DNA of 41,897 nt, taken from positions 1-41,897 of the forward strand of contig CAMNRF010000013.1 of assembly GCA_946551795.1 (NCBI GenBank), read 5' to 3'. A program made the position numbers and the translations under genes. The notes under the pieces are model-generated. The model saw only the letters and a program-made list of their open reading frames with translations. It had not been told where the DNA came from and did no database searches. Below, in pieces: positions 2,567 to 25,355 of the stretch (positions are counted from its first letter, which is position 1; every line of letters starts with the position of its first letter). Source of the stretch: an uncultured Oscillibacter sp. Lineage in GTDB: Bacteria > Bacillota > Clostridia > Oscillospirales > Oscillospiraceae.

Positions 2567-2592
2567 AAGATGTCCTCCTTCGGGTTTTCTCC

Positions 2593-2621: not shown

Positions 2622-2769
2622 GGAAAAGATCGCTTTTTTCAGAGATCCGCAGGCCGGGTCACAGGACGATTCATCAGAATCCGTAAAGAGAGGAGCTTTC
2701 CTTGCAAAAAGCACCTCGCTAAAATACAGGTTTGTCTCTGTAAACCGTTTGGTGTGCTCAACCTGGACG

Positions 2770-3042
2770 CTATCCGCCGGAACAGCAAGGGGTGTTATAT
2801 CCAACCACGAGTGTAAGAATACCGATTGTCATGTAAATCAACGGAATGAACAGATCATTCCCGGGTCTCTTATGCGTATACGTATAGAATATAAGGAACA
2901 GCAATGACATCACACTGAATCCACATATTAAAAAAGGATAGACTATTTCCTGGCCAAGGTGCCTTGCCGCAATAGAACGAACATTTGCAATATACCAGGC
3001 AAGATATACAAACCCAGGGCAGAGCAAAAGAATTTTTTTCAC
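2770..3042 (-). CDS. Small AT-rich membrane protein, unknown function
   Basis: This 90-residue, very hydrophobic protein has a GTG start after AGGAGGAG. Three likely transmembrane helices are visible: residues about 3-20 (KILLLCPGFVYLAWYIA), 33-53 (VYPFLICGFSVMSLLFLIFY) and 66-83 (FIPLIYMTIGILTLVVG). It ends with a Cys-Cys pair (PCCSGG). I do not recognise a family. Base composition (many A/T-ending codons) differs sharply from the surrounding GC-rich genes, which suggests recent acquisition or relaxed selection. It has a good promoter (3087-3115). It lies between the GNAT gene and a Cys-rich protein on the other strand, without an obvious functional link. Confidence 0.6.
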   Translation of the reverse strand: MKKILLLCPGFVYLAWYIANVRSIAARHLGQEIVYPFLICGFSVMSLLFLIFYTYTHKRPGNDLFIPLIYMTIGILTLVVGYNTPCCSGG

Positions 3043-3086
3043 AACAAAAAAGCTCCTCCTCCCATAGATGCCGGCCTTCTGAACGC

Positions 3087-3115
3087 ATTATAGCACAGGG
3101 CAGCTGTCATATCAA
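3087..3115 (-). promoter_or_regulatory. Sigma-A promoter of the small membrane protein
   Basis: On the minus strand: TTGATA (3110-3115), 17-base spacer, perfect TATAAT (3087-3092), about 45 bases before the GTG start. Confidence 0.6.
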
Positions 3116-3188
3116 TCATATGCTTTTGCAGAAACCGCCGAAGCTGTCACCGAAGCGCATTCTTAAACGGGATGAAAAGTATCGCCGG

Positions 3189-3217
3189 TTGCGGAGGGGC
3201 GGCAGGTGTGATATGAT
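3189..3217 (+). promoter_or_regulatory. Promoter of the Cys-rich putative winged-helix gene
   Basis: TTGCGG (3189-3194), 17-base spacer, TATGAT (3212-3217), with an AT-rich start region and a leader of about 50 bases. Confidence 0.5.
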
Positions 3218-3274
3218 AAGAATAGAAATATATTCGACAGGGCAAGCTGGAGAACACACAGAGGAGGGTCGGAC

Positions 3275-3708: not shown

Positions 3709-4896
3709 TCAGAAGCACTTGCGGTAGATAGCCTCCTCGGCCTCCAGGTCGAAGGGATAGTAGGCGTTGGTCATCAGGCGCTGCTGGTTGGCCTCCACGG
3801 ACAACGGGAAGGCCTTGAAGTCCGCCTCGGTGAAACCGCAGTCCCGCAGGGGGCGCAGGGGCAGAATCCGCTGGAGCAGGGCGTTCAGCTCGGGAATGGC
3901 GTCCTTGGCCTCGCAGCCCAGAATGCGGGCCACCAGCTCCTTGAAACGCATGATCTCGCCGTCGGGGTTCTTCTCGTCGTAGTAGTCCAGGATGGCGCCG
4001 AAGAGCATATAGTTGCTCTCGCCGTGGGCCACGTGGTAAGTGCCGCCCAGGGGGAAGCTCATGCCGTGGACCGGGCCGCAGCCGGCCTTCAGGAAGGCGA
4101 TGCCGGCGTAGAAGCTGGCGGTCACAAACTCGTCCAGATACTCAAAGCGCGCGTCCTGACCCTTCTCGTCAATGAGCTTGAAGCCCTTGAGGATCACGTC
4201 CATGGCCTTCTCGGAGAAGAGCTCGCTGGTCATGGTCTTGCGGTGGGGGCTCAGGAAGGACTCGGTGGCGTGGACCAGCGCGTCGATGGCGGAGCAGGCG
4301 AAGGGCTTATAGGGCAGGGTCTTGATGAGGTCGGGGATCAGGCAGACCTTGTTGGGGATGATGTCGTCGGACACCAGGCCCAGCTTGGTCTCGCCGCCGG
4401 TGAGCACGCCGTCCTTCTCGTCCTTGACGATGGCCACGGAGATGTTGGTGCACTCGCTGCCAGTGCCGCAGGTGGTGGGGATGGCGATGACGTCCTTCTC
4501 ATGCTGGACGGGGAAACGCTTGAAATACAGGTTGTGCACGGTGTCGGGCCGCTTGCAGCCCAGCAGCTTGCACAGGTCCATGATGGCGCCGCCGCCCACG
4601 GCGATGACCCGGTCATAGCTGTCATAGGGGATGGCGTCGTACATGATCTGGATCATTTCCTCGCTGGGCTCGCCGGCGCCGAACTTCTCCTGGAACACAA
4701 ACTGGCACTTGAGGCCGAGGTCCTTCATGAAGGGGGTGTAGATGAACTCGTTGGTCAGCACCACGTCCCGGTCGTTCAGCTTGAACTCCTCCGCCATGGC
4801 GGCGAAGGTATCGAACTTGTACACGGTGGGGGCGAAGATGATCTCCCGCTTGTCGGCCATCAGAGCGGCGGAAAAAGCGTCCATTTTCTGAGCCAT
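3709..4896 (-). CDS. Iron-type alcohol dehydrogenase, 4-hydroxybutyrate dehydrogenase-like
   Basis: This 395-residue group III (Fe) alcohol dehydrogenase interconverts an aldehyde and an alcohol with NAD(P). The nucleotide loop VIAVGGGAIMD, the PTTCGTGSE block, the metal ligands Asp/His in CSAIDALVHATESF and two His in GPVHGMSFPLGG..HVAHGE are all present. Several blocks (VYKFDT, VLTNEF, FQEKFGAGEPS, GGTYHVAHGESNY) recall, from memory, 4-hydroxybutyrate dehydrogenase of Clostridium kluyveri, so succinate semialdehyde or a related short polar aldehyde is a reasonable guess. The ATG at 4896 is chosen because AAGGAG sits 10 bases upstream; an in-frame TTG at 4905 would abut that site. Upstream lies a 350-base structured non-coding stretch and then the split transketolase, on the same strand. 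The proximity suggests a shared carbohydrate-derived aldehyde, which is inference. Confidence 0.9.
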   Translation of the reverse strand: MAQKMDAFSAALMADKREIIFAPTVYKFDTFAAMAEEFKLNDRDVVLTNEFIYTPFMKDLGLKCQFVFQEKFGAGEPSEEMIQIMYDAIPYDSYDRVIAVGGGAIMDLCKLLGCKRPDTVHNLYFKRFPVQHEKDVIAIPTTCGTGSECTNISVAIVKDEKDGVLTGGETKLGLVSDDIIPNKVCLIPDLIKTLPYKPFACSAIDALVHATESFLSPHRKTMTSELFSEKAMDVILKGFKLIDEKGQDARFEYLDEFVTASFYAGIAFLKAGCGPVHGMSFPLGGTYHVAHGESNYMLFGAILDYYDEKNPDGEIMRFKELVARILGCEAKDAIPELNALLQRILPLRPLRDCGFTEADFKAFPLSVEANQQRLMTNAYYPFDLEAEEAIYRKCF

Positions 4897-4905
4897 TGCT
4901 ATCAA

Positions 4906-5268: not shown

Positions 5269-6240
5269 TTACTTACGGGCAATCGCCTTCTTCACGGCCT
5301 CCACGATATTGGCCGCCCGCAGGCCGTAGGTATCCATCAGGAAGTCCTGGGGACCCACCTGGCCGAACTCATCCTGCACGCCCACGAACTCCTGCACCGT
5401 CGGGCAGTTCCGCGCCAGGCAGTTGGCCACCACAGACCCAAGACCGCAGCAGGTGTTGTGGTTCTCCGCCGTGACAATGGCCCCGGTCTCCTTCGCGGCC
5501 TTGATAACCAGCTCCTCGTCCAGGGGCTTCCAGGTGAACATATCGATCACCCGGACACTGATCCCCTCACTCTGGAGGGCCTCGTAGGCTTTCAGGCTCT
5601 CGTCCACCATGATGCCGGAGGTGATGATGGCGGCCTGGTCCGCGCCGCTCTCGTGGAGCACCACGCCCTTGCCGATCTCGAACTCGCTGCCCTCGCCGTA
5701 GACCTGGACGATGCCCTTGCGGACGAAGCGGGTGAAGCTCACGCCCTCCACATTCACAAGGCCCCGGGTCACGCTGGCCAGCTGGTCGTAGTCCGCCGGG
5801 TCCAGCACGGTGGTCCCGGGGATGGAGAGGTACATGGCGGCGTCCTCCAGGGGCATGTGGGTGCCGCCGTTGAAGGCGGCGGTGACGCCGGCGTCGCTGC
5901 CCAGCACCCGGACACTCAGGCCGGCGTAGGCGGCGGACATATAGATCTGGTCATAGCAGCGGCGGGAGGAGAAGGTGCCGAAGGAGTGGAAGAAGACCTT
6001 CTTCCCCGTGGCGGCCAGGCCCGCGGCCACGCCCGCGGCGTTGCCCTCGGCGATGCCGGCCTCAAAGGCCCGCTCGGGATAGTTTTTCCGCAGCTGCTTG
6101 GTATTGATGCAGCCCATCAGATCGCAGTCCACGTAGACGATGCTCTTGTCCTCGGCCATCAGCTCGTTCAGGGTCAGAGCCAGGCCGTCCCGGCAGGCCC
6201 GGGAGTCCTTTTCATGCTTGCCGATCAGTTTCACATTCAT
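5269..6240 (-). CDS. Transketolase, C-terminal subunit (pyrimidine-binding and C domains)
   Basis: This 323-residue second half of a split transketolase has the Pyr domain first (DGLALTLNELMAEDKSIVYVDCDLMG.., then the glutamate-containing ERAFEAGIAEGNAAGVAAGLA, whose Glu activates ThDP) and the C-terminal domain after about residue 190 (IITSGIMVDESLKAYEAL..IDMFTWKPLD). With the N-terminal subunit (6256-7089) it should form the heteromeric enzyme moving two-carbon ketol units between sugar phosphates. The ATG at 6240 is chosen because AAAGGAGGG lies 9 bases upstream; the in-frame GTG at 6249 would touch it. The ribosome binding site overlaps the stop of the upstream subunit, so the two are translationally linked. 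Split transketolases serve the pentose phosphate route but also apiose and sulfoquinovose pathways, so the donor here is open. Confidence 0.92.
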   Translation of the reverse strand: MNVKLIGKHEKDSRACRDGLALTLNELMAEDKSIVYVDCDLMGCINTKQLRKNYPERAFEAGIAEGNAAGVAAGLAATGKKVFFHSFGTFSSRRCYDQIYMSAAYAGLSVRVLGSDAGVTAAFNGGTHMPLEDAAMYLSIPGTTVLDPADYDQLASVTRGLVNVEGVSFTRFVRKGIVQVYGEGSEFEIGKGVVLHESGADQAAIITSGIMVDESLKAYEALQSEGISVRVIDMFTWKPLDEELVIKAAKETGAIVTAENHNTCCGLGSVVANCLARNCPTVQEFVGVQDEFGQVGPQDFLMDTYGLRAANIVEAVKKAIARK

Positions 6241-6255
6241 CTCTCTCACCCTCCT

Positions 6256-7089
6256 TTAAGCGTTCCGCGCGGCTTCCAGCTCTTTTTCAGAGGCCGCGAT
6301 GGCCTCCTGCCACTGCTCCTCATTGGGCTGGGAGGAGTGGTCGTGCTTGGGCTCGGCGAAGGTGGCGCCCTTGCCCTTGCTGGTGTTCAGCACGATGCAG
6401 CTGGGCACGCCCTTGGTCTCTTTCGCCTTCTGGATGGCGTCATAGATGGCTTTCACATCGTGGCCGTCCACCACCTGGGTGTGCAGGCCGAAGCCCTCGG
6501 CCTTTTTGGCCAGACTGCCGTGGGCCAGGATGTCGTCGGTGGGGCCGTCCAGCTGATAGCCGTTGTTGTCGATGAAGTAGATGATGTTGTCCAGCTTGTG
6601 GGCGCAGGCGAAGTGGAAGGCCTCCCAGACCTGGCCCTCGTCGGCCTCGCCGTCGCCGATGACGCAGTAGACGTAGTTGTCCCGGCCGTCGATCCGGTTG
6701 CCCAGAGCCGCGCCGGTGGCGGTGGAGGCACCCTGGCCCAGGGAGCCGGTGGTCAGGTCCACGCCGGGGGTGAGCTTGCGGTCCGTGTGGCTGGGGAATT
6801 TGGTGCCGGGCTGGTTCAGGGTGTAGGCCTCCTCCATGGGGTAGAAGCCCATCAGGCCGAAGGTGGCGTAGGCCACCGGGCCCGCGTGGCCCTTGCTGAG
6901 CACCAGCCAGTCCCGGTCCTCCCAGCGGGGATTCTTGGGGTCGAACTTCATGACCTCGCCGTACAGCACGGCCATCAGGTCCGCCAGGTCCATGGACCCG
7001 CCCACATGGCCGAAGCCCCGGCTGTGGATGACCTTCAGCGTCTCCAGCCGGATCTCCGCCGCCAGTACCTTGAGATTTTTTTCGTTCAT
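6256..7089 (-). CDS. Transketolase, N-terminal subunit (ThDP diphosphate-binding domain)
   Basis: This 277-residue N-terminal half carries the ThDP/Mg motif GDGEADEGQVWEA..DNNGYQLDG (GDG-x26-31-N type), the conserved SRGFGHVGGSMDLADL near the start, SKGHAGP, and the GSLGQGAS loop. The start at 7089 (MNEKNLKV) matches the family N-terminus and has a GGAAGAGAG purine run upstream; longer in-frame starts add a low-complexity tail. It is the first gene of a two-gene unit behind the promoter at 7240-7269, and its leader carries a perfect inverted repeat (7177-7200). The partner subunit follows after 15 bases. It lies beside the permuted phosphoglycerate mutase, but a terminator separates the two transcription units. 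Confidence 0.92.
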   Translation of the reverse strand: MNEKNLKVLAAEIRLETLKVIHSRGFGHVGGSMDLADLMAVLYGEVMKFDPKNPRWEDRDWLVLSKGHAGPVAYATFGLMGFYPMEEAYTLNQPGTKFPSHTDRKLTPGVDLTTGSLGQGASTATGAALGNRIDGRDNYVYCVIGDGEADEGQVWEAFHFACAHKLDNIIYFIDNNGYQLDGPTDDILAHGSLAKKAEGFGLHTQVVDGHDVKAIYDAIQKAKETKGVPSCIVLNTSKGKGATFAEPKHDHSSQPNEEQWQEAIAASEKELEAARNA

Positions 7090-7176
7090 CAGCTCTCTCT
7101 TCCTTTCCATGTTTTGCCGCCTGCCGCACCGCGGGTCCCGCCGGGGCACGGAGCCGGTCAGAGCAGGACTTCCCGG

Positions 7177-7200
7177 AAACTGTGTGCGTTCACACAGTTT
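7177..7200. promoter_or_regulatory. Perfect inverted repeat in the transketolase leader (operator or RNA hairpin)
   Basis: AAACTGTGTG (7177-7186) and CACACAGTTT (7191-7200) form a 10-base-pair perfect repeat with a 4-base gap, about 35-60 bases downstream of the predicted transcription start of the transketolase genes. It could be a regulator-binding site or an mRNA hairpin. It does not match the AAACGTTT sites of the LacI regulon. Confidence 0.5.
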
Positions 7201-7239
7201 TGCACAGCTATATCCGGAGGCCTTGTTCATTGCGGGTCT

Positions 7240-7269
7240 ATTCTACTCCCATTCAAAGTGTCCCGTCAA
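7240..7269 (-). promoter_or_regulatory. Sigma-A promoter of the transketolase operon
   Basis: On the minus strand: TTGACG (7264-7269), 18-base spacer, TAGAAT (7240-7245), giving a leader of about 140 bases. Confidence 0.6.
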
Positions 7270-7343
7270 TATCTGTTTGAATTTTCACAATAGATTGGGG
7301 AAAACGCAAAAAAAGCCGCCGTGTTTCGTGACAAAACATACAA

Positions 7344-7370
7344 AGGCGGCGCGGCAGAGCCGCGCCGCCT
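7344..7370 (-). terminator. Terminator after the permuted phosphoglycerate mutase gene
   Basis: An 11-base-pair GC stem (7344-7354 with 7360-7370, loop of 5) lies 6 bases past the stop codon. On the minus strand it is followed by TTTGTATGTTTTG, a moderate U-rich stretch. Confidence 0.65.
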
Positions 7371-7376
7371 CTCCCT

Positions 7377-8945
7377 TTATTCGTACCGGGTTCCGGTGCC
7401 CTCCACCATGGCGTCGTAGGCACGCTTGACCTTGTCGTAGTTCTTGTCCCGGTCCAGGGCCACGCCCCGGCCCACGCCGTCCACGATGCGGCCCACGCCG
7501 ATGGCCTCCAGACGCTGGTCCGTCTCCGCCAGCAGGGCGGGGGCGGAGCCGGGGTCGGTGGAGCGGCCGTCGAAGATGATGTGGAGATACACCCTGTCCA
7601 GCCCGTTGTCCCGGGCCATCTCGCAGATGTTCAGGGGGTAGTCGATGCAGCCGTGGGAGGACTTGTAGGTCAGATACGCCAGCAGGTGCAGGGCGGTGCC
7701 GTTCTTTTTGGCGTGCTCGATGGCCTGGAGGAAGATGGGGTTCTTCTTAAAGCTGCCGTCCTTCACGGCGGCGTCCAGGCGGACGTCGTCCTGCATCACG
7801 CAGCGGCCCGCCCCCAGGTTGGAGTGGCCCGCCTCGGAGTTGCCGGCCTTGCCGGCCCCCAGGCCCACGAACTCACCGGAGGCCTGGAGCCTGGACCAGG
7901 ACTTCTCCGCCAGCAGGGAGTCCCAATAGGGGGTGTCGGCCAGGTGAATGGCGTCGCCGTCGTCGCCGGTGCCAAGGCCCCAGCCGTCGCAGATGATGAG
8001 AAGCATCTTCCGCCCCTCACCCCAGTCCCTGCCCTCGCAGAGGGGTTTTCCGTCCATCTCGGGGGGCTGGGGGATGCCCATCACGTCCAGCACCGTGGGG
8101 GCCACGTCCCCCAGGGAGCCGTCCCGCAGGGCGATGGGAGCGGGGTCGGCGGGGTCGATCAGGATGAAGGGCACCAGGTTGGTGGTGTGGGCCCCGTCGG
8201 GCTTGCCGGCGGCGGTGTAGAGCTTTTCAATGTTGCCGTGGTCGGCGGTGATGGCCACCACATAGCCCTTCCCCAGGGCGTCGTTGACCACCTTGTCCAG
8301 GTACTGGCTCACATAGCCGCAGGCTTTGATCTTGGCCTGGGTGTTCTGGGTGTGGCCGATGACGTCGCCGTTGGCGAAGTTGGTCACCACGAAGTCGTAC
8401 TTCCCCAAGGCGTCCATGACGGCGTCCGCCACCTGGGGCAGGGACAGCTCCGGCTTCTGGTCGAAGTCGATGCCCTTGGGAGAGGGGAAGCACAGGTCGT
8501 CCTCCCCGGGGAAGGCGTTGTTCTCGCCGCCGTTGAAGAAGAAGGTCACGTGGGCGAACTTCTCGCTCTCGGCGCAGTGGAACTGGCTCTTGCCCGCCTC
8601 GCTCAGCACCTGGGCCAGGGGCTTCACCACCTTGGCGGGGGCGAAGGCGATGGGCAGATCCTTGAACTTGTCGTGGTACATGGTCATGATGACGAAGTCC
8701 AGGTCCTTGAGCTTCCGGCGCTCCGCCTTGTCGAAGCCCTCCTCCGTGAACATCTCGGTGAGCTCGATCTCCCGCTCGCCCCGGCGGCAGCAGAAGATGG
8801 CGGCGTCGCCGTCGGAGATCTTGCCCACGGGCTTGCCGTCCTCCACCAGGACCATGGGCTCTAGGTGATAGTCGTCCTGCCCCAGCCCGTATGCCTTTTT
8901 AACGGCCTCCGCCAGCTGGGCGCCGCCGCGTTTGATGTCTGCCAT
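7377..8945 (-). CDS. Circularly permuted cofactor-independent phosphoglycerate mutase homologue
   Basis: This 522-residue protein carries the whole iPGM (GpmI, alkaline phosphatase superfamily) sequence, but the halves are swapped. Residues about 8-301 match the usual C-terminal half (from after GxGPTYRD to the end). Residues about 314-521 match the usual N-terminal half, joined by a short linker (CEGRDWGEGRK) with a Met (M314) where the ancestral start would be. Metal and catalytic residues remain: D194, H198, D235, H236 (ADHGN), H253 (AHTTN), D320 (CDGWG) and nucleophile S370 (GNSEAGH). Arg55, Arg58, K129, H431, R493 and R499 fit known substrate contacts. Two pocket motifs differ: usual SDGGVH reads TYKSSH (426-431), and DGRD reads DGRS (459-462), so the substrate may not be 3-phosphoglycerate. 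AGGAGG precedes the ATG. It is last in the HAD operon, under the predicted LacI operator. Confidence 0.93.
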   Translation of the reverse strand: MADIKRGGAQLAEAVKKAYGLGQDDYHLEPMVLVEDGKPVGKISDGDAAIFCCRRGEREIELTEMFTEEGFDKAERRKLKDLDFVIMTMYHDKFKDLPIAFAPAKVVKPLAQVLSEAGKSQFHCAESEKFAHVTFFFNGGENNAFPGEDDLCFPSPKGIDFDQKPELSLPQVADAVMDALGKYDFVVTNFANGDVIGHTQNTQAKIKACGYVSQYLDKVVNDALGKGYVVAITADHGNIEKLYTAAGKPDGAHTTNLVPFILIDPADPAPIALRDGSLGDVAPTVLDVMGIPQPPEMDGKPLCEGRDWGEGRKMLLIICDGWGLGTGDDGDAIHLADTPYWDSLLAEKSWSRLQASGEFVGLGAGKAGNSEAGHSNLGAGRCVMQDDVRLDAAVKDGSFKKNPIFLQAIEHAKKNGTALHLLAYLTYKSSHGCIDYPLNICEMARDNGLDRVYLHIIFDGRSTDPGSAPALLAETDQRLEAIGVGRIVDGVGRGVALDRDKNYDKVKRAYDAMVEGTGTRYE

Positions 8946-8978
8946 ATGAAAATACCTCCTGTATGGATGAAATCAGTA

Positions 8979-9755
8979 TCACTGTCCGTCGTCGGGGCGG
9001 ATCAGCCTGTCGATGGCCACCTGCCCGCAGGCGGGGAAGATGTCCAGCAGCTGGGGGAAGGTGTAGACCTTGCCGTCGGGCATGTTCTCCTCCGTCAGTT
9101 TCAGGGGCTTATTCCTGTCGTACTGCACTGTGACGGTCATGCCGAAGGCGCAGGCCTTGGCCCCCACGATGTCCCGGTTCAGGTTGTCGCCCACGTAGCA
9201 GCAGTTCTCCGGCTGCGCGCCCACCTCGTCCAGAGCGTAGTAGTAGATGGCGGGGCCGGGCTTGCGGACGTAGGTGATGGAGGACTGCTGCACGGTCTTG
9301 AAGTAGGGCCGCAGGCCGTCCGCGTCCAGCCACTCGTCCACCTCCCGCTTTCCCACCAGGTCGCTGATGATGCCCAGGGTGTAGCCCCGGGCGCACAGCT
9401 CCTTGACGGTCTCGGCGCCGCCGGCCACCACGGTGCGGCGGCCCTTGGTCTGGCGGTACTGGTAGGTGAGCTCCGCGGCGTTTTTCAAAATCCGCTCCCG
9501 GTCCATGTCATAGGCAAGCCACCGGGTCCACAAAACCTCCTCCGGCGCCTCGCACATGAATTTCAGCGCCCACTCCCGGTACTTGTCGTACCGCTTGTCG
9601 ATGACGTCGCTGAACCACTGGTTGGGGTCGTCGGTCTCCACGCCGCAGAGCGCCGCGATCTTCGCCCGGGCGGCGGAGAGGTAGGCGGGGTCCTCGTCGA
9701 TGACCCGGAAGGTGCCCCCCAGGTCCAGAAAGATATAGCGAATATCGGTGTTCAT
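8979..9755 (-). CDS. HAD superfamily protein 1 (second Asp of motif I replaced by Gly)
   Basis: This 258-residue HAD protein has a helical cap inserted after motif I (residues about 20-110). Motif I is FLDLGGT: nucleophile D11 is present but the usual second Asp, the general acid/base, is G13. Motif II is GIISD, motif III the lysine in VRKPGPAIY, motif IV YVGDNLNRDIVGAK. It is clearly paralogous to the next two genes upstream: all share a [YR]xKYRxW segment, a YQYRQxKGRR stretch and the RKP-IY block. Canonical HAD phosphatases need the second Asp; dehalogenases (Tyr) and phosphonatases (Ala) do without, so chemistry other than plain phosphate ester hydrolysis is possible. AAGGAGG lies 10 bases before the ATG. 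It is third in the operon HAD-HAD-HAD-mutase; the gap of 98 bases upstream contains a GC hairpin. Confidence 0.88.
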   Translation of the reverse strand: MNTDIRYIFLDLGGTFRVIDEDPAYLSAARAKIAALCGVETDDPNQWFSDVIDKRYDKYREWALKFMCEAPEEVLWTRWLAYDMDRERILKNAAELTYQYRQTKGRRTVVAGGAETVKELCARGYTLGIISDLVGKREVDEWLDADGLRPYFKTVQQSSITYVRKPGPAIYYYALDEVGAQPENCCYVGDNLNRDIVGAKACAFGMTVTVQYDRNKPLKLTEENMPDGKVYTFPQLLDIFPACGQVAIDRLIRPDDGQ

Positions 9756-9853: not shown

Positions 9854-10591
9854 TCATTTCAGCGGGGGAAGCAGGTCCAGAATCTCCCGGAAGTCGCTGA
9901 CCACCGCGTCGGGGCGGTTGGCCTCGGTGAACTCCACGGCGTGCTTTTTCTCCGGGGAGCGGAAGATGATATTGCAGCCGATGCCCGCCTCCTTGGCGCC
10001 GGTGATGTCCCGCTTCACGTTGTCCGCCACGGACACGCAGTCCTCCGGAGCCACGCCGATGTCCCGGCAGGCGATGTCGTAGATCTCGGAGCAGGGCTTG
10101 CGCAGTCCGCAGACCGAGGAGAGGACCACGGTGTCGAAGTACCGGTCCAGGCCGTCCTCCTCCAGCCAGTCGGGCACCTCGTGCTCGCCGATGAGGTTGG
10201 AGATGATCCCCAGCTTGTAGCCCCGCTCATGGAGCCCCTGGATGACCTCCACGCCGCCGTCCACGACGACCCGGCGGCCCTTGCACTGGCGGTACTGAAA
10301 GCTCAGCTCGTGGCAGACCTGCCTGATCCGCTCCTGATCGTAGTCCGGCAGCAGCCATTTGCACCACAGCTCCTCGTCCCGGGACTCCCGATTCTCCTCC
10401 AGGGCCCACTTGCGGTAGGGCTCGTACCGCTCCTCGATCATCTGGTAGAACTCCTCGTAGGGCACGGGGGAGCCGGCGATCTCCGCCATCTTTCGGCGGG
10501 CGTGCTTCATCCAGGGCTCCTCCAGCAGGGCGATGCGCAGCGTGCCCCCCAGGTCGAAAAAGACGGCCTTGTAACGCTTGCTCGTATCCAT
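9854..10591 (-). CDS. HAD superfamily protein 2 (second Asp of motif I replaced by Gly)
   Basis: This 245-residue paralogue of its neighbours has motif I FFDLGGTLR (D13 nucleophile, G15 in place of Asp). A helical cap includes ERYEPYRKWALEE and ELWCKWLLPDYD. Motif II is GIISN, motif III LRKPCSEIY, motif IV VADNVKRD, where the usual Gly of GD is Ala. Cap similarity to HAD 1 and HAD 3 is strong over the full length, so the trio arose by tandem duplication. GGAGGAAG precedes the ATG. It starts 15 bases after the stop of HAD 3, so the two are co-transcribed from the promoter at 11447-11475. Confidence 0.88.
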   Translation of the reverse strand: MDTSKRYKAVFFDLGGTLRIALLEEPWMKHARRKMAEIAGSPVPYEEFYQMIEERYEPYRKWALEENRESRDEELWCKWLLPDYDQERIRQVCHELSFQYRQCKGRRVVVDGGVEVIQGLHERGYKLGIISNLIGEHEVPDWLEEDGLDRYFDTVVLSSVCGLRKPCSEIYDIACRDIGVAPEDCVSVADNVKRDITGAKEAGIGCNIIFRSPEKKHAVEFTEANRPDAVVSDFREILDLLPPLK

Positions 10592-10606: not shown

Positions 10607-11341
10607 TTAAGTACGGGCGGGGAAGATGTCCAGCAGCTCCGACAGGGCGGTGATCACGTGGTCGGGGGTGAACTCCCTGCCGGTGGCGTGCTCGTTGTTC
10701 AAGGTGTCGGGCTCGTCGATGCGGATCATCATGCCGAAGCCCGCGGCCTGGGTGCCCTCCACGTCCCGGACGGGGTTGTCGCCCACATAGGCGCAGTTGG
10801 CCTCAGGGGTGCCGATGCAGCGGCAGGCCAAGTGGTAGATCGCCGGGTCGGGCTTGCGCAGCCGCACCTTGGAGGAGAGGATGGTGGTCTTGAAGCACTG
10901 GGCCACGCCGTCGGCGGCCATCCAGTCGGGGATCTCCGTCTCCGTGACGGTGTTGGCGATGATGCCCAGGGTGTAGCCCCGGGCGCAGAGCTCTTTAAGC
11001 GTTGACACGGCGTCGGGCCGGGCCACCCGGCGGCCGTCGTGGTCCCGCCACAGGCGGGTGAGCTTGGGCGCGTTGGCGAAGATCATGTTGGGCTCGTACT
11101 CCGGCAGCATGTACTGAGTCCACAGCTCGCCCTCGGAGGCGTCCAGCAGCGTCTCCTTGGACAGCCTGCGGTACTTCTTCCACCGCTCCTCCAGCTTGGC
11201 GAAGAGCTCGTCGTGGCTCTCCGTGGTCTGGATCAGCTCCATGAGGCCCGCCTCGGCCCGGTCGATAAAGTCCTGCTCCTTGAGCACGATGCGCAGGGTG
11301 TTGCCCACATCAAAGAAAATCGTCTGAATATCCGGGGTCAT
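10607..11341 (-). CDS. HAD superfamily protein 3 (motif I and motif II both altered)
   Basis: This 244-residue protein is the first gene of the operon. Motif I is FFDVGNTLR (D11 kept, G13 replaces the second Asp, N14 the usual Gly). Motif II reads GIIAN, with Ala where the phosphate-binding Ser/Thr normally stands. Motif III is LRKPDPAIY and motif IV YVGDNPVRD. The double change suggests reduced or altered catalysis, or a binding or scaffold role within the paralogue set. The ATG at 11341 is used because AAGGAGG lies 8 bases upstream; the in-frame TTG at 11359 sits upstream of that site. The divergent lacI lies about 330 bases away, and the operator at 11418-11429 lies in this gene's leader. 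Confidence 0.88.
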   Translation of the reverse strand: MTPDIQTIFFDVGNTLRIVLKEQDFIDRAEAGLMELIQTTESHDELFAKLEERWKKYRRLSKETLLDASEGELWTQYMLPEYEPNMIFANAPKLTRLWRDHDGRRVARPDAVSTLKELCARGYTLGIIANTVTETEIPDWMAADGVAQCFKTTILSSKVRLRKPDPAIYHLACRCIGTPEANCAYVGDNPVRDVEGTQAAGFGMMIRIDEPDTLNNEHATGREFTPDHVITALSELLDIFPART

Positions 11342-11417
11342 TTCAAAGTCCTCCTTCAAAATAATAATCGAGGAAAACCCGCCGGCGGGCCGCGCCGTCC
11401 GGCGGTGGGACCGGCTT

Positions 11418-11475: not shown

Positions 11476-11547
11476 TATGCCAAATGCCAAAGTGTAGGGC
11501 AGTTTTTTCGTTTTTATGCCCAAAAGGCGGAAAAAATCAGATTGTTA

Positions 11548-11576
11548 TTGACAATAGTGGGAAAATCATATATGCT
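11548..11576 (+). promoter_or_regulatory. Sigma-A promoter of lacI
   Basis: Consensus TTGACA (11548-11553), 17-base spacer, TATGCT (11571-11576), with a leader of about 90 bases that holds an operator. Confidence 0.65.
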
Positions 11577-11630
11577 TTCATTATATGGCTGGCAGTGGGA
11601 ACCACGCTGCCGGCCGCCAAATATAAGACG

Positions 11631-11641
11631 GAAACGTTTGC
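11631..11641. promoter_or_regulatory. LacI-family operator in the lacI leader
   Basis: GAAACGTTTGC has the same AAACGTTT core as the sites at 11418 and 25356. It lies about 50 bases downstream of the predicted lacI transcription start, so lacI probably represses itself. Confidence 0.7.
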
Positions 11642-11670
11642 GATTTTGCCCGCCGGGGAGGTTGAATTCT

Positions 11671-12675
11671 ATGAAAAGCGTAACGCTCAAAGATGTGGCA
11701 AAGGCCGCCGGCGTCTCTTACGCCACCGTCTCCCGGGCCCTGTCCGGCAGCCCCCAGATCGGCAGCGACACCCGGGAGCGCATCATCAAGCTCTGCGACG
11801 AGATGGGCTACACCACAAACTATGTGGCCCGCTCCATGGTGATGAAGAAGACCGACCTCATCGGCCTGGTGGTGCCCTCGGTGGACAACCAGTTCATGAG
11901 CGAGATGGCCTACCATGCGGAGATGAGCGCCCGGACCCACGGCTACAACATCATGCTGTGCAACTCCGGCCCGGACCTGAAGCAGGAGAAGACCGTGGTC
12001 AAGCTGCTGCTGGGCCGCCAGGTGGACGGCATCCTCATCGTGCCCCAGGGGCCCCAGACCTATGAGAACATCCGGGCCTACACCGACCAGGTGCCCACGG
12101 TGTTCGTCAGCGAGAACCTGCGGGACCAGCCCCAGAGCTACGTCACCGTGGACAACAGCCGGGGCACCTACATCGGCACCAAGTACCTCTACGAGCTGGG
12201 CCACCGGGACATCCTCTACTTCGGCCGCCGCCGCACCACCACCCACCAGCTGCGGGCGGAGGGGTATATGCGGGCCTGTCAGGAGCTGGGCCTCCAGCAG
12301 CGGTTTTTCAACAGCGAGTACAGCCGCTCCTCCATCAACAACGGCTACCAGATGGCCCGGGAGCTCTTCTCCCGACCCATCGACTACACCGCCATCTTCG
12401 CCTCCACGGACTCCCACGCCCTGGGCGTCATGCGGGCGGCGGACGAGCTGCGGATCGACATCCCCGGCCACCTCAGCCTCATCGGCTTCGACAACATCCC
12501 CTCGGCGGAGCTGCCCCGCATCGAGCTGACCACCATCGAGCAGCCCCTGCGGGAGATGGCCATCCAGGCCGTGGACATGCTGCGGGACAAGATCGAGCAC
12601 GGCACCCAGGGGTATGTCCACCAGATCCTCCTGCCGGGCCTCGTGAAGCGGGGCACCTGCCGGGCGCTGGACTGA
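11671..12675 (+). CDS. LacI family transcriptional regulator
   Basis: This 334-residue protein has an N-terminal helix-turn-helix (residues about 3-27: VTLKDVAKAAGVSYATVSRAL), a hinge helix near YTTNYVARSMV, and a two-lobed periplasmic-binding-protein-like effector domain from IGLVVPS to the C-terminus. Recognition residues YATVSR fit operators with a central CG. A ribosome binding site GGGGAGG stands before the ATG; longer in-frame starts would run back through the operator. It is divergent to the HAD-mutase operon and followed by PHP and PfkB genes on the same strand. The three AAACGTTT sites in the window suggest that it controls itself, the HAD operon and the ABC importer operon; the inducer is probably a sugar or sugar phosphate of that pathway (inference). 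Confidence 0.93.
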   Translation: MKSVTLKDVAKAAGVSYATVSRALSGSPQIGSDTRERIIKLCDEMGYTTNYVARSMVMKKTDLIGLVVPSVDNQFMSEMAYHAEMSARTHGYNIMLCNSGPDLKQEKTVVKLLLGRQVDGILIVPQGPQTYENIRAYTDQVPTVFVSENLRDQPQSYVTVDNSRGTYIGTKYLYELGHRDILYFGRRRTTTHQLRAEGYMRACQELGLQQRFFNSEYSRSSINNGYQMARELFSRPIDYTAIFASTDSHALGVMRAADELRIDIPGHLSLIGFDNIPSAELPRIELTTIEQPLREMAIQAVDMLRDKIEHGTQGYVHQILLPGLVKRGTCRALD

Positions 12676-12753: not shown

Positions 12754-13482
12754 ATGAACGGCTATCTCTACGACCCCCACACCCACACGGCGGAGACCAG
12801 CAGGTGCGGACACCTCTTCGCCGCCGACGTGGTGGACCGCTACCTCCGCCACGGCTTCTCCGGCCTGGTGGTCACCGACCACCTCCACCCGGAGTACCTC
12901 TCCCGCATCGACACGGAGCACAACTGGGACAAGGTCATGGACCACTACCTCTCCGGCTACCACGCCTCCAAGAAGCGGGGCGACGAGGTGGGCCTGGACG
13001 TGCTCCTGGGCGCCGAGTTCCGCTTTCCCGAAAACGACAACGACTACCTGGTCTACGGCATCGACGAGCAGTGGCTCCGCTCCAATCCCTACGCCTGCTG
13101 CATGAGCGCCCAGGAGTTCTTTGACAAGTTCCACGACCAGGTCCTGATCATCCACGCCCACCCCTTCCGCAAGGGCAGCGCCCCGGTGCGGGAGACCGCC
13201 GTCCACGGCGCGGAGATCATCAACGGCAACCCCCGCCACGAGAACAACAACGACCAGGCCCTGGACCTGTGCCGCCGCCATCCCGAGTACTACCGCCTGG
13301 CCGGGTCCGACACCCACCGGGACGGGGACGAGGCCCGCACCGCCGTCATCCTGCCGGAGCGGGTCCACGACTCCTTCGCCTACAAGGCCCTCATCGAACG
13401 CCGGGACTTCCACCTCTGGAGCCCGTCGTTCCAGGAGTTTGTGGAGGCCGACGAGGCCATGCGGAAGGAGGCGGCGCAATGA
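12754..13482 (+). CDS. PHP domain metal-dependent phosphoesterase
   Basis: This 242-residue protein has the PHP metal-binding motifs in order: DPHTHT (7-12), GLVVTDHLH (about 37-45), the Glu of LLGAEFRF, IIHAHPF, and the C-terminal SDTHRD. PHP proteins are polynuclear metal phosphoesterases (histidinol phosphatase, nucleoside 3',5'-bisphosphate phosphatase and the like); no polymerase or other domain is attached. AAAGGGAG lies upstream of the ATG. It follows lacI by 78 bases and overlaps the kinase gene by ATGA, so PHP and PfkB are translationally coupled. A phosphatase coupled to a sugar kinase suggests that a phosphate is moved from one position of a substrate to another, but this is inference. 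Confidence 0.88.
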   Translation: MNGYLYDPHTHTAETSRCGHLFAADVVDRYLRHGFSGLVVTDHLHPEYLSRIDTEHNWDKVMDHYLSGYHASKKRGDEVGLDVLLGAEFRFPENDNDYLVYGIDEQWLRSNPYACCMSAQEFFDKFHDQVLIIHAHPFRKGSAPVRETAVHGAEIINGNPRHENNNDQALDLCRRHPEYYRLAGSDTHRDGDEARTAVILPERVHDSFAYKALIERRDFHLWSPSFQEFVEADEAMRKEAAQ

Positions 13483-14360
13483 GCCGGTTTGACTCTCTGA
13501 TCATCGGCGAGGTGGCCCGGGACACCAACGTGGACTACGACGGCACCACCGTCCAGGCCATCGGCGGCGCGGTGTACTACTCCGGCTACGCCGCCGCCAA
13601 TATCGGGCACAAAATCGCGGTGCTGCCCAAGGCGGCCATGGCCCCGGCGGAGCTGGAGGCGGCCTTCGCCAAGGCCCCTGACGCCGCGGTGTACCCCCTG
13701 CCCAGCACCCGCTCCTTTGTGACCAAAAACGTCTACCACACCCCGGACCGGGAGCGGCGCACCTCCACGGTGGACAGCGTCATCGACCCCTACCGCACCG
13801 ATGAGATCCCCGCCGGCATCGACGCCGCCATCTGGCACCTGGCGGGCCTGGTGGGGGGCGACATCCCCGACGGGATGATCCCCTTCGCCGCGGAGCGGGC
13901 CATGGTGGCCATCGACGTGCAGTGCATGCTCCGCTGGGTGGAAAACGGCGGCATGGTGTACCGCGACTGGGCGGCGAAAAAGGAGATGCTGCCCTATGTC
14001 CGCTTCCTCAAGACCGACGCCGCCGAGGCGGAGATCCTCACCGGCCTCACGGACCGGGCGGAGGCCGCCAAAATGCTCTACAGCTGGGGAGCAAAGGAGA
14101 TTCTGATCACCCACAATACCGAGGTGCTGGTCTACGACGGAAGGGAGATCTACACCTGCCCCATCAAGGCCCGGAACCTCTCCGGCCGCACCGGGCGGGG
14201 GGACACCACCTTCGCCTGCTACATCAACGAGCGGCTGACGGAGGACATCCCCACGGCCCTCCGCACCGCCACGGCCCTGGTCTCTTTGAAGATGGAGACG
14301 CCGGGGCCCTACATGGGCACCCGGGCGGATCTGGAGGATTACATCAAAGCGTTCTACTGA
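13479..14360 (+). CDS. PfkB family carbohydrate kinase
   Basis: This 293-residue ribokinase-like protein has an N-terminal substrate strand (SLIIGEVARDTNVDYDG), the GGAVYYSGYAAANIG block (first PfkB signature) and the second signature NLSGRTGRGDTTFACYI, where the Asp of GRGD is the catalytic base and the anion-hole Gly residues remain. Length is normal. The lid region is short, as in monomeric members of the family. It phosphorylates a sugar, sugar acid or nucleoside; the exact substrate is not readable. ATGA overlap with the PHP gene gives coupling. It ends at a strong terminator (14382-14415). Its location under lacI control suggests catabolism rather than salvage. Confidence 0.9.
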   Translation: MSRFDSLIIGEVARDTNVDYDGTTVQAIGGAVYYSGYAAANIGHKIAVLPKAAMAPAELEAAFAKAPDAAVYPLPSTRSFVTKNVYHTPDRERRTSTVDSVIDPYRTDEIPAGIDAAIWHLAGLVGGDIPDGMIPFAAERAMVAIDVQCMLRWVENGGMVYRDWAAKKEMLPYVRFLKTDAAEAEILTGLTDRAEAAKMLYSWGAKEILITHNTEVLVYDGREIYTCPIKARNLSGRTGRGDTTFACYINERLTEDIPTALRTATALVSLKMETPGPYMGTRADLEDYIKAFY

Positions 14361-19205: not shown

Positions 19206-19967
19206 TCACACAGCCTCGTGCTGCTCCAGATCCCGCAAAATGGCGTAGACCTGGTAAATGTCGTCAATCTCATAGGTGGCCCGGATCTCCTTGGGCACGT
19301 CCACATCCTTGCACTTTGTCAGCTTGGAGTTGATGTGGAAGGTCATGCCGAAGCCCATGCGCTGGGGACCGATGACATCCCGGGACACCGTGTCGCCCAC
19401 GTAGGCGCAGGTGGACGGGTCGGACCGGACCTGGTTCAGGGAAACCCTGAAAATATTCTCATCCGGCTTGCGGTAGCCGGTGACGGAGGACAGCGTCACA
19501 TCCTGGAAATAGTCCCGGATGCCGTACTCCTCCAGAATGTCGAACACCTGGTAGAGGCTGGCGGTGTTGCTGATGACGCCCAGCTTCATCCCCAGGCCCT
19601 TCAATCCCGCCAGCATCTCCGCCACCCGGGGGCGGAGGGTGCGGTGGTAGTAGGTGACCTCCCACATATGGGCCAGCTCCTCGGCAAAGGGGGCCGCCGT
19701 CTCCTGGTCCAGGCCGAAGTCTGTCAGAACATACTGCCCCCAGATCTCCTCCGGCTTCAGCTCCCGGTCCGTGGGGCCCCGGTAGGCGGCGTAGCGGTCC
19801 CAGCCGTCCGCCAGCTTCTTCCGGGCGGCTGGCAGGTCGTCGGGCACGAGGATGCCCTTCTCTCTCAGGATGCGCAGGACTTCCCGGGCGGAGGCCTCCC
19901 GGCTCTCCTCGTCCGTATAAATATCCTCCAGCGTTCCGCCCATATCGAACAATACAGTATCAATCAT
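19206..19967 (-). CDS. HAD superfamily protein 4 (second Asp of motif I replaced by Gly)
   Basis: This 253-residue protein is a further relative of the HAD trio at 8979-11341. Motif I is LFDMGGT (D8 nucleophile, G10 instead of Asp), motif II GVISNT, motif III YRKPDENIF, motif IV YVGDTVSRD. The cap includes WDRYAAYRG and EELAHMWEVTYYHRTL. It is the last gene of the importer operon, only 4 bases after the membrane protein gene. Its presence in the transporter operon, together with a predicted shared LacI operator, ties the importer to the HAD-mutase cluster. It probably acts on the imported compound or a product of it; direct evidence is lacking. Confidence 0.88.
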   Translation of the reverse strand: MIDTVLFDMGGTLEDIYTDEESREASAREVLRILREKGILVPDDLPAARKKLADGWDRYAAYRGPTDRELKPEEIWGQYVLTDFGLDQETAAPFAEELAHMWEVTYYHRTLRPRVAEMLAGLKGLGMKLGVISNTASLYQVFDILEEYGIRDYFQDVTLSSVTGYRKPDENIFRVSLNQVRSDPSTCAYVGDTVSRDVIGPQRMGFGMTFHINSKLTKCKDVDVPKEIRATYEIDDIYQVYAILRDLEQHEAV

Positions 19968-19971
19968 CGTC

Positions 19972-20520
19972 TTACGGCCCTTTCCTAAGCTCCGCCACGT
20001 CTTTGACAGGGGGCTTATGTTTCCAGTATCGGTAAAACAGGAGCATCGACAGCCCGTCTCCCAGAATCAGGGGGACCAGCACGAACATCCCGAAAAATTG
20101 CAGAGCCAGGATCTGCGCCCCACGCTCTCCTCTCAAAAGAACCAGCAGGGCGATCAGGCAGGCCAGCATCAGCAGCGTCAGCCACAGATAGGCCGCCGGC
20201 AGTTTTCTCTTGTCGCCGGGCAGGAGCCAGGCCAGGCCGCACACCGCCGTGCCCAGAACCGCGGGGACCAGGGCGGTGACCAGATTTTCAAGGAAAACCG
20301 GCGCTCCGTCCATCAGCGCGTGCAGCGGGGTGATCAAGAGGGCGACGGCCCCGCCGTGGACGGCGGCAAACACCCAGCAAAGGCAGAAGGAGTACAGCAT
20401 CAGCGTGCTCTTCACCCTGCCGTTTTCCACCATCTGAAAGGCGGACCAGAAGCTGTCCGCCGCCCGGCCGATTTTCTCGTCGATCTGATTTTCCCGAATG
20501 GGATTGCCTCTGCCCAGCAT
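19972..20520 (-). CDS. Membrane protein of unknown function in the importer operon
   Basis: This 182-residue protein has a polar N-terminus (about 30 residues, RENQIDEKIGRAADSFWSAFQMVENGRVK) and four likely membrane helices (about 39-63, 77-100, 113-130, 138-162), ending with a charged cytoplasmic tail. I recognise no family; the overall look is of the YesL-like membrane proteins that accompany sugar ABC importers in Firmicutes, but that is a resemblance only. GAGGAGGAA precedes the ATG. It sits between the solute-binding protein gene and HAD 4. Confidence 0.7.
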   Translation of the reverse strand: MLGRGNPIRENQIDEKIGRAADSFWSAFQMVENGRVKSTLMLYSFCLCWVFAAVHGGAVALLITPLHALMDGAPVFLENLVTALVPAVLGTAVCGLAWLLPGDKRKLPAAYLWLTLLMLACLIALLVLLRGERGAQILALQFFGMFVLVPLILGDGLSMLLFYRYWKHKPPVKDVAELRKGP

Positions 20521-20607: not shown

Positions 20608-21945
20608 TTACTTGGGGGCCTGGTCGCGCCAGAAGGTCCACATATCCTGCACGTCGGGATAGATGCCGTAAATGGCGTCCAGGTCGTTGGCGCGGGCGCC
20701 CAGGTCGTGCAGGGAGACGGGGTTCTTGTCGTTGGGGACGTCGTCCCGCAGGGGCCAGTTGCCGGTCTTGGTGAAGGGCTTGAAGCCGCCGCTCTCGCCG
20801 TCGGCGCCGCCGGTGACGTAGCGGATGAAGAGCCGGGCGCCGGCGGGGCTGTCGCAGCCCTTGACGGCGAACATGGACTCGGTGTTCAGCAGCGCGGTGT
20901 AGGGGGTCAGGTTGGTGCACCAGTCAATGTTGTAGCCGGACTCCTCCCGGTTTTCGATCTTGCCGGCGGAGGCCAGGCACAGGGCGGGATCGTCCTTGGT
21001 GGAGTTATGGACGGCCAGCACCAGCTCGTCGCCGTCGCCGATGAAGGTCATCTTGGCCTGGGTGAAGCGCCACAGGTACTCCACGCCGGCGTTGTTCTCG
21101 GGCACGGGGAAGGCGAAGCCGGAGGGATCATAGGTGTACTCCAGGTCGGTGCCGTAGATGTCCTTATAGGACTGCTCCATCTCGTCGGCGTTGGTGATGA
21201 AGCTGGCAAACAGGGAGAGGTAGGCGGTCTCCTGGCCGATCTCCTTGGCGAAGATGCGGTACTTCTGGCTGCCGTCGGGGTTCTTCTCGATGATCTGCCA
21301 CCAGCTGTCGATGGGCTGGCCGTCAGGGAACGCCTCGGTGTTATAGTACCAGAAGGCCTGGGAGGCGTACAGCGGGAAGCTGAACTTCAGGTTCTCCTCC
21401 TCGATGTGGGAGCAGATGTCCCGGGGATAGAAGGGCTCGATGACGCCCTTGCTGTAGTACTCAAAGAACACGTTGCCGTTGACGTCCTTGGTCTGGAGCA
21501 CGTCGGCGGTGATGTTGTTGGTGCTGTTCTCGATCTCGGCCTTGCTCAAAACCTCGTCGGAATCCAGGTCGGAGACCACCAGGTCCAGGCCGGGATACTT
21601 CTCCTCAAAGCCCTCTTCGCACTTGAGCATCTTGGAGGAGGTGGCGTAGACGTTGATCTCCTTGGCGCCGCCCTCGACTTCCTTCAGAGCCTGCTCATAG
21701 AGCTCCTCGTCGGTCATGTCGCTCCAGTCGTCCCAATAGGGGCCATAGACCTCTTCCTTGGTCTCGCGGTTGTAGCCGAACTGCTTGGCGCCGGTGTCGG
21801 CATCGGAAGCGGAATCACCGCCGGCGGCGGGCTCGTTCTGCGCGGGGGTGTTCTCGGCAGGCGGCGTATCCGTCTTGCCGCCGCAGGCCGCCAGGCTCAG
21901 CACCATGACGGCTGCCAGTAAGAGTGCCAGTAACTTCTTCTTCAT
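20608..21945 (-). CDS. ABC importer solute-binding lipoprotein, family 1 (Fbp/Afu-like)
   Basis: This 445-residue lipoprotein has a signal peptide (MKKKLLALLLAAVMVLSLAAC, lipobox LAAC with Cys at 21), a disordered Pro/Ala/Ser linker to about 55, and then a type II periplasmic-binding fold (INVYATSSKMLKCEEGFEEKYPG start, SFPLYASQAFWYYNTEAFP in the first lobe, GSGF-like YTYDPSGFAFPVPENN later). Together with one ATPase and one double-length permease this is the architecture of Fe(III)/thiamine/sugar-phosphate/aminoethylphosphonate importers. The ligand cannot be named. ATG at 21945 is preceded by AAAGGAG; earlier in-frame starts would bury the signal peptide. It is transcribed with the ATPase and permease upstream of it. 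Confidence 0.88.
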   Translation of the reverse strand: MKKKLLALLLAAVMVLSLAACGGKTDTPPAENTPAQNEPAAGGDSASDADTGAKQFGYNRETKEEVYGPYWDDWSDMTDEELYEQALKEVEGGAKEINVYATSSKMLKCEEGFEEKYPGLDLVVSDLDSDEVLSKAEIENSTNNITADVLQTKDVNGNVFFEYYSKGVIEPFYPRDICSHIEEENLKFSFPLYASQAFWYYNTEAFPDGQPIDSWWQIIEKNPDGSQKYRIFAKEIGQETAYLSLFASFITNADEMEQSYKDIYGTDLEYTYDPSGFAFPVPENNAGVEYLWRFTQAKMTFIGDGDELVLAVHNSTKDDPALCLASAGKIENREESGYNIDWCTNLTPYTALLNTESMFAVKGCDSPAGARLFIRYVTGGADGESGGFKPFTKTGNWPLRDDVPNDKNPVSLHDLGARANDLDAIYGIYPDVQDMWTFWRDQAPK

Positions 21946-22014
21946 CGGGTTCTTCTCCTTTCGTTTTTCCAGAATGATTGGGGAATTTCGCCGGAGCTCT
22001 ATAATCAAGCGGGG

Positions 22015-22039
22015 CCGGGCGGCATCCTCCGCCGCCCGG
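22015..22039 (-). other. GC hairpin between importer ATPase and binding-protein genes
   Basis: A 9-base-pair stem (22015-22023 with 22031-22039) has no U-tract. It probably shapes mRNA stability within the operon. Confidence 0.45.
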
Positions 22040-22068
22040 GAGCGCCTTGATCCGGAAGGGCGGAGGGA

Positions 22069-23190
<1,122 letters not shown>

Positions 23191-23230
23191 TATCGTTCTT
23201 TCCTTTCTGTCATGTCATGTGGTCCGTGGT

Positions 23231-25057: not shown

Positions 25058-25086
25058 GGTAACACCTCTTTCTGATACTATCCGCC

Positions 25087-25112
25087 AATGAAAACCGGTC
25101 TCGGTTTTCATT
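25087..25112. other. Perfect hairpin just upstream of the importer permease gene
   Basis: AATGAAAACCG (25087-25097) pairs with CGGTTTTCATT (25102-25112), loop GTCT. In the minus-strand mRNA it lies about 30 bases before the GTG start and could affect translation. Confidence 0.5.
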
Positions 25113-25355
25113 CCGTCAGCTTCGCTGCCGGGACACGCCGCAGCGGCGGTGTCGGCGAAGTCGTGCCATACGAATCTCTCCAAACTCCATACGGACGTCG
25201 GAAACCGCGGCATCTGCCGCGGCGCCAAAACACGGAGGGCCGCATTTTAACGAAGGCTTCGCATGGCGACTGCGGGAGAACGCGTGAATCAGTCTTCTTT
25301 TCCCTCAGCTCTCGCTCTGTCTCCACAAATCCGCGGTGATCAGGCGCAAATTTGT

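Follow-up and report, generated by a model that had tools for sequence, protein, structure and literature searches.

A circularly permuted relative of cofactor-independent phosphoglycerate mutase in Oscillibacter and other bacteria

Gene content of the locus

The DNA analysed here (the window) is a stretch of 41,897 nucleotides from an uncultured gut bacterium, Oscillibacter sp., whose genome assembly comprises 2.42 Mb in 127 contigs and is 85.66% complete. On the minus strand of the window, three genes encoding HAD-superfamily proteins are followed by a gene related to that of cofactor-independent phosphoglycerate mutase (iPGM, GpmI), by the genes of a split transketolase, and by a gene of an iron-type alcohol dehydrogenase (Table 1). 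The alcohol dehydrogenase gene comes after the iPGM-like gene and transketolase in close relatives of this locus too. Divergently from the operon is transcribed the gene of a LacI-family regulator, with the gene of a PfkB-family carbohydrate kinase behind it. Genes of a fourth HAD protein and of an ABC importer are on the minus strand farther away, and homologues of this importer are found near the iPGM-like gene in some other loci. The fourth HAD gene is separated from the importer by a gene encoding a 182 aa protein, homologues of which occur in three other loci (L063, L106, and L081).

HAD phosphatases usually carry a second Asp in motif I. The cluster of HAD proteins associated with the iPGM-like genes (c2) is characterized by motif I of the DxG[GNADS]T type, with Gly at the position of the second Asp in 204 of its 255 members (shadow frames included); 8 of the remaining members have another match and 43 have none. 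Judging by this motif, the HAD proteins encoded beside the iPGM-like gene may not be ordinary phosphatases.

Table 1. Predicted features of the window; positions are those of the 41,897-nucleotide stretch
Feature	Position	Strand	Basis or remark
Iron-type alcohol dehydrogenase	3709..4905	-	PF00465
Transketolase C subunit	5269..6249	-	PF02779/PF02780
Transketolase N subunit	6256..7230	-	PF00456
Circularly permuted iPGM-like protein P0001	7377..8945	-	Pfam, NCBIfam, PDB matches
P0001 residues 314-521, old N-terminal half	7383..8006	-	1ejj 6-213; iPGM_N at 391-519
D320 (presumed metal ligand), S370 (nucleophile), pocket H431, R461, R493, R499	within 7383..8006	-
Ser462, at the position of substrate residue Asp154	7560..7562	-	residue alignment
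SSHG (429-432), mostly GVHS (121-124) in normal iPGM	7650..7661	-	residue alignment
Ser370, at the position of nucleophile Ser62	7836..7838	-	alignment to 1ejj
P0001 residues 303-313, 11 aa joint of old C-terminus to old N-terminus	8007..8039	-	gap between 1ejj alignments
P0001 residues 1-302, old C-terminal half	8040..8945	-	TIGR01307 214-503; 1ejj 218-508
D194, H198, D235, H236, H253 (presumed metal ligands), pocket R55, R58, K129	within 8040..8945	-
Ribosome-binding site AGGAGGT, 8 bases before ATG (8943-8945)	8954..8960	-	sequence
HAD-superfamily protein, motif I DLGGT	8979..9755	-	33 bases upstream of permuted gene
HAD-superfamily protein, motif I DLGGT	9854..10591	-	family search
HAD-superfamily protein, motif I DVGNT	10607..11359	-	family search
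LacI-family regulator	11542..12675	+	PF00356
PfkB-family carbohydrate kinase	13269..14360	+	PF00294
Fourth HAD protein, motif I DxG[GNADS]T type	19206..19967	-
182 aa protein with hydrophobic stretches	19972..20520	-	no family match
ABC importer as a whole	20608..25228	-
Importer solute-binding protein	20608..22008	-	below Pfam cut-off
Importer ATPase	22069..23190	-	family search
Importer fused permease	23231..25228	-	family search

Permuted architecture of the iPGM-like protein

The iPGM-like protein (P0001) is 522 aa long. A sequence-only reading of the window had described its gene as one uninterrupted frame, naming no strand; the frame of 522 codons is indeed unbroken, starts with ATG, ends with a stop codon that the coordinates 7377-8945 include, and lies on the minus strand. 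The NCBIfam, PDB, and Pfam comparisons all agree that the two halves of the protein are swapped with respect to GpmI, in which the N-terminal half precedes the C-terminal one. In the best stretch of the profile search, positions 214-503 of TIGR01307 match P0001 residues 12-302. In the case of the Geobacillus enzyme (1ejj), chain positions 218-508 align with P0001 residues 13-302 and positions 6-213 with residues 314-521 (whole-sequence E 3.4e-110), while the Pfam models Metalloenzyme (66-251 of 252) and iPGM_N (2-130 of 217) match residues 104-292 and 391-519, respectively. The TIGR01307 score summed over two stretches is 452.2 bits, which is above the equivalog cut-off of 330.65, whereas the stretches taken singly score 259.5 and 194.2 bits, both below it. 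The PF01676 Metalloenzyme domain is present in all 41 members of an alignment set of the family (A4), which places them in the alkaline phosphatase superfamily.

On the grounds of these alignments P0001 is to be regarded as a genuine circular permutant of the iPGM fold, in which the old termini are joined and the transferase half is opened, between the positions equivalent to 213 and 218 of the Geobacillus enzyme; the sameness of the fold is a prediction. The part of the normal chain that separates the new ends is about four positions long (214-217). The sequence-only reading had put the break in the same half, had delimited the aligned regions as 8-301 and 314-521, and had estimated the joint at about 12 residues, all of which agrees to within a few residues with the family profiles and with the 1ejj alignment. 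It had also taken a Met at the place of the old start for a trace of tandem duplication and trimming. This Met is present in P0001 (M314), but among 80 aligned permuted proteins the position is occupied by Met in 59, by Val in 16, and by another residue in 5; since it is not invariant, it says little in favour of a start codon having once stood there. Neither a duplicated intermediate nor a normal-order gene with the SSHG/Ser154 signature described below was found among the loci read, which cover the best 80 of 187 relatives. An origin of the permutation by tandem duplication and trimming is plausible.

Structure prediction, proposed along with that reading, gave a confident model. AlphaFold2 run on 41 permuted sequences yielded a pLDDT of 93.4 and a pTM of 0.83; the two blocks extending over the joint have mean pLDDT values of 90 and 96. 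All 22 Foldseek matches of the model with E up to 0.001 are iPGM structures. Each of the alignments has 230-335 columns, which is about half of the chain, and a TM-score by query of 0.37-0.49, a result of the kind that a sequential aligner should give with a permutant. P0001 most likely adopts the two-domain structure of iPGM with its binuclear metal site. The gene is under purifying selection: when 28 close copies were compared in 375 pairs, dN/dS ranged from 0.034 to 0.704, with a median of 0.140. The medians for the two halves are 0.133 and 0.146, and that for the joint is 0.375, indicating weaker purifying selection in the joint.

Relatives and spread of the permuted gene

Full-length copies of the permuted gene, of 78-100% identity, are present in 14 of 37 genomes of the same genus (own genome included); a fragment was found in one of the remaining genomes (G036) and nothing in 22. 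No copy was found in 23 genomes from other families of the order. When genome_contigs was scanned with an alignment covering the C-terminal 108 residues, 187 relatives were identified. In the best 80 of them the gene is permuted in one frame in 75 cases and in normal order in none, while five loci could not be classed, three being cut by contig ends (L048, L098, and L118) and two having broken frames (L082 and L092); in both of the latter the old C-terminal half is upstream. The start is readable in 73 permuted relatives: it is an ATG at the same place in 72 of them, and a Shine-Dalgarno-like GGAG, GAGG, or AGGA is present no more than 20 bases upstream in 69. Two further genes (L071 and L110) are permuted without a start. 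Genome G746 contains two different full-length permuted genes (in C102 and C8).

The possibility that an assembly chimera or a frameshift fused two partial iPGM genes, which had been named as the finding that would overturn the permutation, is refuted for the family: the window genome is indeed fragmented and contains a normal-order iPGM gene on another contig, but this gene and the permuted one are merely 43-44% identical, the swapped order recurs full length in other genomes, including strain-labelled records, and the low median dN/dS also speaks against an artefact, so that its probability is practically nil.

The relatives are labelled as Oscillibacter, Dysosmobacter, other Oscillospiraceae, Lachnospiraceae, Erysipelotrichaceae, Spirochaetes, and Chloroflexota, but as most of them are metagenome-assembled, these names may reflect misbinning. 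Strain-labelled carriers include Oscillibacter sp. 1-3 and O. valericigenes An890, An860, and An411. Screening for full-length matches at a strict threshold (E up to 1e-75), which can miss distant copies and in which own and centre genomes are counted, detected the permuted gene in 7 of 300 genomes of the same family, 2 of 391 genomes of the class, 2 of 350 genomes of a Chloroflexota set (where an additional match, G1160, is in normal order), and 1 of 247 genomes of a spirochaete set, namely the centre genome. The 13 matches in a set of 398 genomes of the phylum are the own gene, 11 genes with an identity of 40-42% whose alignments pass through the joint, and a normal-order gene (G1623). By sequence comparison, the permuted genes are of two branches, one with the gene of the window and the other with distant copies of about 40% identity; the latter was found in 11 further Bacillota genomes (398 examined) and one Chloroflexota genome (350 examined). 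Close relatives of P0001 were absent from viral_contigs. Among 72,556 plasmid records, 44 match P0001, all at less than 60% identity; the eight matches listed in detail align in two pieces, and six of these are annotated gpmI.

For tree inference, the halves of permuted proteins were rearranged to normal order by a script. In the first tree, of 31 permuted (out of 80) and 55 normal (out of 87) proteins, the two kinds are split on one branch (SH-aLRT 99), and in the second, of 35 permuted (out of 89, distant branch included) and 49 normal proteins, one change accounts for the distribution (SH-aLRT 99). Both are quick trees without bootstrap and with no inferred root, and they contain long rows (L202 in both, L205 in the first). 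Neither tree places the permuted proteins as a sister group to the normal iPGM of their own genus. The family thus sampled probably arose by a single permutation. A spirochaete-labelled protein (L111) groups with a Clostridiales-labelled one (L107) with a support of 100, and species with the permuted gene sit beside species without it within one genus, which suggests horizontal movement or misbinning.

Active site

Residues were counted, in 1ejj numbering, in 89 permuted proteins (78 near and 11 distant) and 87 normal rows; an earlier count in 80 permuted proteins overlaps with this one. A partial copy (G1634), the normal-order G1623, and the permuted genes without a start were omitted from the residue sets, as were a partial (L146) and a broken (L147) sequence from the normal set. 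Residues D12, D403, H407, D444, H445, and H462, which we take to be the six Asp/His metal ligands, and the nucleophile S62 are kept in all 89 permuted proteins, so that the survival of the metal ligands and Ser nucleophile noted from the sequence of P0001 extends to the whole set.

In Geobacillus iPGM, nine residues interact with 2-PG and 3-PG according to PMC3886921: S62, H123, R153, D154, R185, R191, R261, R264, and K336. Eight of them are kept in all 89 permuted proteins. The exception is D154, which is replaced by Ser in 88 proteins and by Gly in one, while Asp is present in 85 of the 87 normal rows. In addition, residues 121-124 are SSHG in 89 of 89 permuted proteins and mostly GVHS in the normal rows. 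Ser at 121 or 122, or Ser or Gly at 154, is not found in any of the 87 normal rows.

Other phosphoglycerate mutases in the same genomes

Of 33 genomes carrying the permuted gene, 30 yielded another phosphoglycerate mutase (PGM) as well, in some cases as fragments only. Separate matches of the normal iPGM kind are present in 24 of the 33, some of them partial (e.g., G756, G764, and G767). Among the other nine, dPGM above the cut-off is present in G750, G760, G761, G769, and G771, and apgM in G761, G765, and G771. No other PGM was found in G747, G755, and G763, for which completeness is not given; broad histidine-phosphatase family genes are present in the last two. The same concerns three genomes of the same genus (G005, G011, and G014; 80, 71, and 91% complete), where no other PGM was found.

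Gene neighbourhoods of permuted genes

Neighbouring genes were counted as single-linkage clusters, with contig ends uncorrected, for the window together with the 80 loci (81 stretches in all). Members of the HAD cluster are present in 69 stretches, PfkB genes in 55, LacI genes in 54, H+-pyrophosphatase genes in 25, and an MgtC gene in 21. Importer genes, with a fused permease, are directly upstream of the permuted gene in L070, L079, and L096. By family search, the importer of L079 is of the same class as the PhnU2, sulfate, and spermidine permeases, with scores that reach the cut-off of no family. A phosphonate-related role, to which the DxG motif of HAD proteins and PhnU2-like permeases might point, was considered and rejected, as the importer families of the window and relatives score far below the NCBIfam cut-offs and only the transporter class can be claimed; the matches listed in a literature search on phosphonates and PGM contained nothing on permutation. 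Also rejected was a HAD-mutase fusion in L103 and L105 (frames of 792 aa), the upstream part of which is not HAD-like on translation and resembles a shadow frame. Genes of beta-CASP metallo-beta-lactamases occur near permuted genes in L079 (374-1609), L109 (4428-5690, minus strand), L093, and L096.

In four loci of the distant branch (L205, L223, L224, and L229) the order of genes is GntR regulator, homologue of cyclic 2,3-diphosphoglycerate synthetase (cDPGS), solute-binding protein, permease, ATPase, and the permuted gene. L225, cut before the regulator, has this order from the cDPGS homologue onward, and L226 retains the ATPase only; both start at a contig end. The permuted gene is the last one in these importer operons, while the operon of the window has HAD, transketolase, and LacI genes instead. 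The cDPGS homologue of L205 can be aligned along almost its entire length with cyclic 2,3-diphosphoglycerate synthetases of solved structure (430 bits, E 1e-127); it is encoded at positions 916-2253 of this locus, followed by the solute-binding protein at 2258-3253, and has no Pfam or NCBIfam model match. The window and the stretches of the 80 named loci yielded no cDPGS homologue. The distant copies L227, L228, L230, and L231 lack the importer genes seen with other members of their branch; RapZ is encoded beside L227, L230, and L231, and a phosphohexomutase beside L227, L228, and L231. The Chloroflexota copy (L202/L232) has no importer, cDPGS, RapZ, or phosphohexomutase neighbours. The difference in gene company between the branches implies that the substrate may vary within the family.

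In L107, the permuted gene is followed (5383-9683) by genes of inositol 2-dehydrogenase, type II (archaeal-type) GAPDH, and phosphoglycerate kinase, after which comes a homologue of the transketolase N subunit gene of the window. An IolG homologue is encoded 3' of the permuted gene in seven loci (83 sequences searched).

Possible function

The conservation of catalytic residues together with purifying selection leads us to infer that P0001 functions as a phosphotransferase. The substitutions at substrate positions, the additional PGMs of the carrier genomes, and the importer, HAD, and cDPGS genes in the neighbourhood of permuted genes suggest that the exchange of glycolytic 2-PG and 3-PG is not its main job, while the retained arginine pocket suggests that the substrate is phosphoglycerate-like. 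The best reading of these data is that of an accessory phosphomutase, and we consider it slightly better than an even bet that this permutant of the iPGM fold uses the iPGM mechanism on a phosphoglycerate-like solute other than the glycolytic 2-PG and 3-PG. The Ser would accept the phosphate, as in iPGM, the Arg/His/Lys pocket would hold the acid, and the phosphate would be returned to a different position of the molecule. The mutase chemistry, the substrate, and the pathway are our inference from sequence and gene context.

Two other explanations, both rather improbable, concern the reaction itself. The protein may be an ordinary PGM, i.e., a permuted GpmI isozyme that tolerates Ser154 and SSHG and acts as a second glycolytic or gluconeogenic PGM of its operon. 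The eight retained substrate residues, the TIGR01307 equivalog score reached in sum (452 vs. 331 bits), the type II GAPDH and phosphoglycerate kinase genes of L107, and the lack of another detected PGM in 3 of 33 genomes and in three incomplete genomes of the same genus are in line with such a role. It is argued against by the replacement of Asp154 in every permuted protein, by the other PGMs in 30 of 33 carrier genomes, by the patchy occurrence within one genus (14 of 37), and by the company of importer, HAD, and LacI genes. Hence, from the name of circularly permuted phosphoglycerate mutase given by the sequence-only reading, the permutation stands, being confirmed by profiles and by 75 of 80 loci, while the PGM function is not upheld in view of the substitution at 154, the invariant SSHG, and the separate normal-order iPGM in the window genome. 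Alternatively, and with a similarly small chance, the protein may be a hydrolase, in which water attacks the phosphoenzyme and phosphate is removed from an imported organophosphate rather than moved within the molecule. An intact metal site of the alkaline phosphatase superfamily and the neighbouring importers and HAD proteins would suit a hydrolase, but both halves are kept under selection, including R153, R185, and R191 of the transferase side, and it is not obvious why a plain phosphatase should require this.

With regard to evolution, we tentatively propose, as a scenario that falls somewhat short of an even chance, that a single old permutation, fixed along with a rebuilt substrate loop (SSHG and Ser154), founded a separate enzyme family, whose members take part in a pathway not yet described and act there on a phosphoglycerate-like compound brought in from outside, together with HAD proteins devoid of the second Asp, in bacteria represented by Bacillota, Chloroflexota, and spirochaete records. 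Phytate or an inositol phosphate is a possibility as the substrate; a literature search for such a link returned nothing.

Comparison with known systems

The iPGM of type apgM and phosphopentomutase have a normal order of halves. The permuted family shares with them a weak similarity of the metal-binding half, but P0001 scores far below the cut-offs of their families. The closest known system is normal iPGM/GpmI (Geobacillus 1ejj/1o98), with which both halves are homologous and the metal ligands, the Ser, and eight of nine substrate residues are common. The permuted family differs from it in the swapped halves, in the change of Asp154 to Ser or Gly and of GVHS to SSHG, and in that its gene is mostly found in a genome beside another PGM and in importer/HAD operons.

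The remark of the sequence-only reading that it knew of no described permuted iPGM is consistent with our search, as no title or abstract opening among the matches listed from the open-licence literature concerns one. Passages of PMC2876114, PMC6957218, and PMC11046441 treat other permuted proteins, and the string 'permut' is absent from the main text of PMC12077085, PMC5382265, and PMC3886921. The permuted iPGM family is widespread and, by all appearances, undescribed. As the summed profile score names plain GpmI, genome annotations and metabolic models probably carry the permuted gene as a second glycolytic PGM. A natural permutant of a glycolytic-enzyme fold, occurring in several phyla and with a switched active site, offers a direct test of whether permutation opens the way to a new function, and the operons with permuted genes point to an uncharacterised use of organophosphates in gut and rumen bacteria.

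Catalytic residues have been lost from two normal-order iPGM copies of the genus of the window (L167 in G003 and L168 in G026), the changes being D444S, H462G, R261G, K336R, H123Y, and D154T. They are the sole iPGM matches in their genomes, where histidine-phosphatase family genes are present, and judging by these residues they look like dead or repurposed iPGM.
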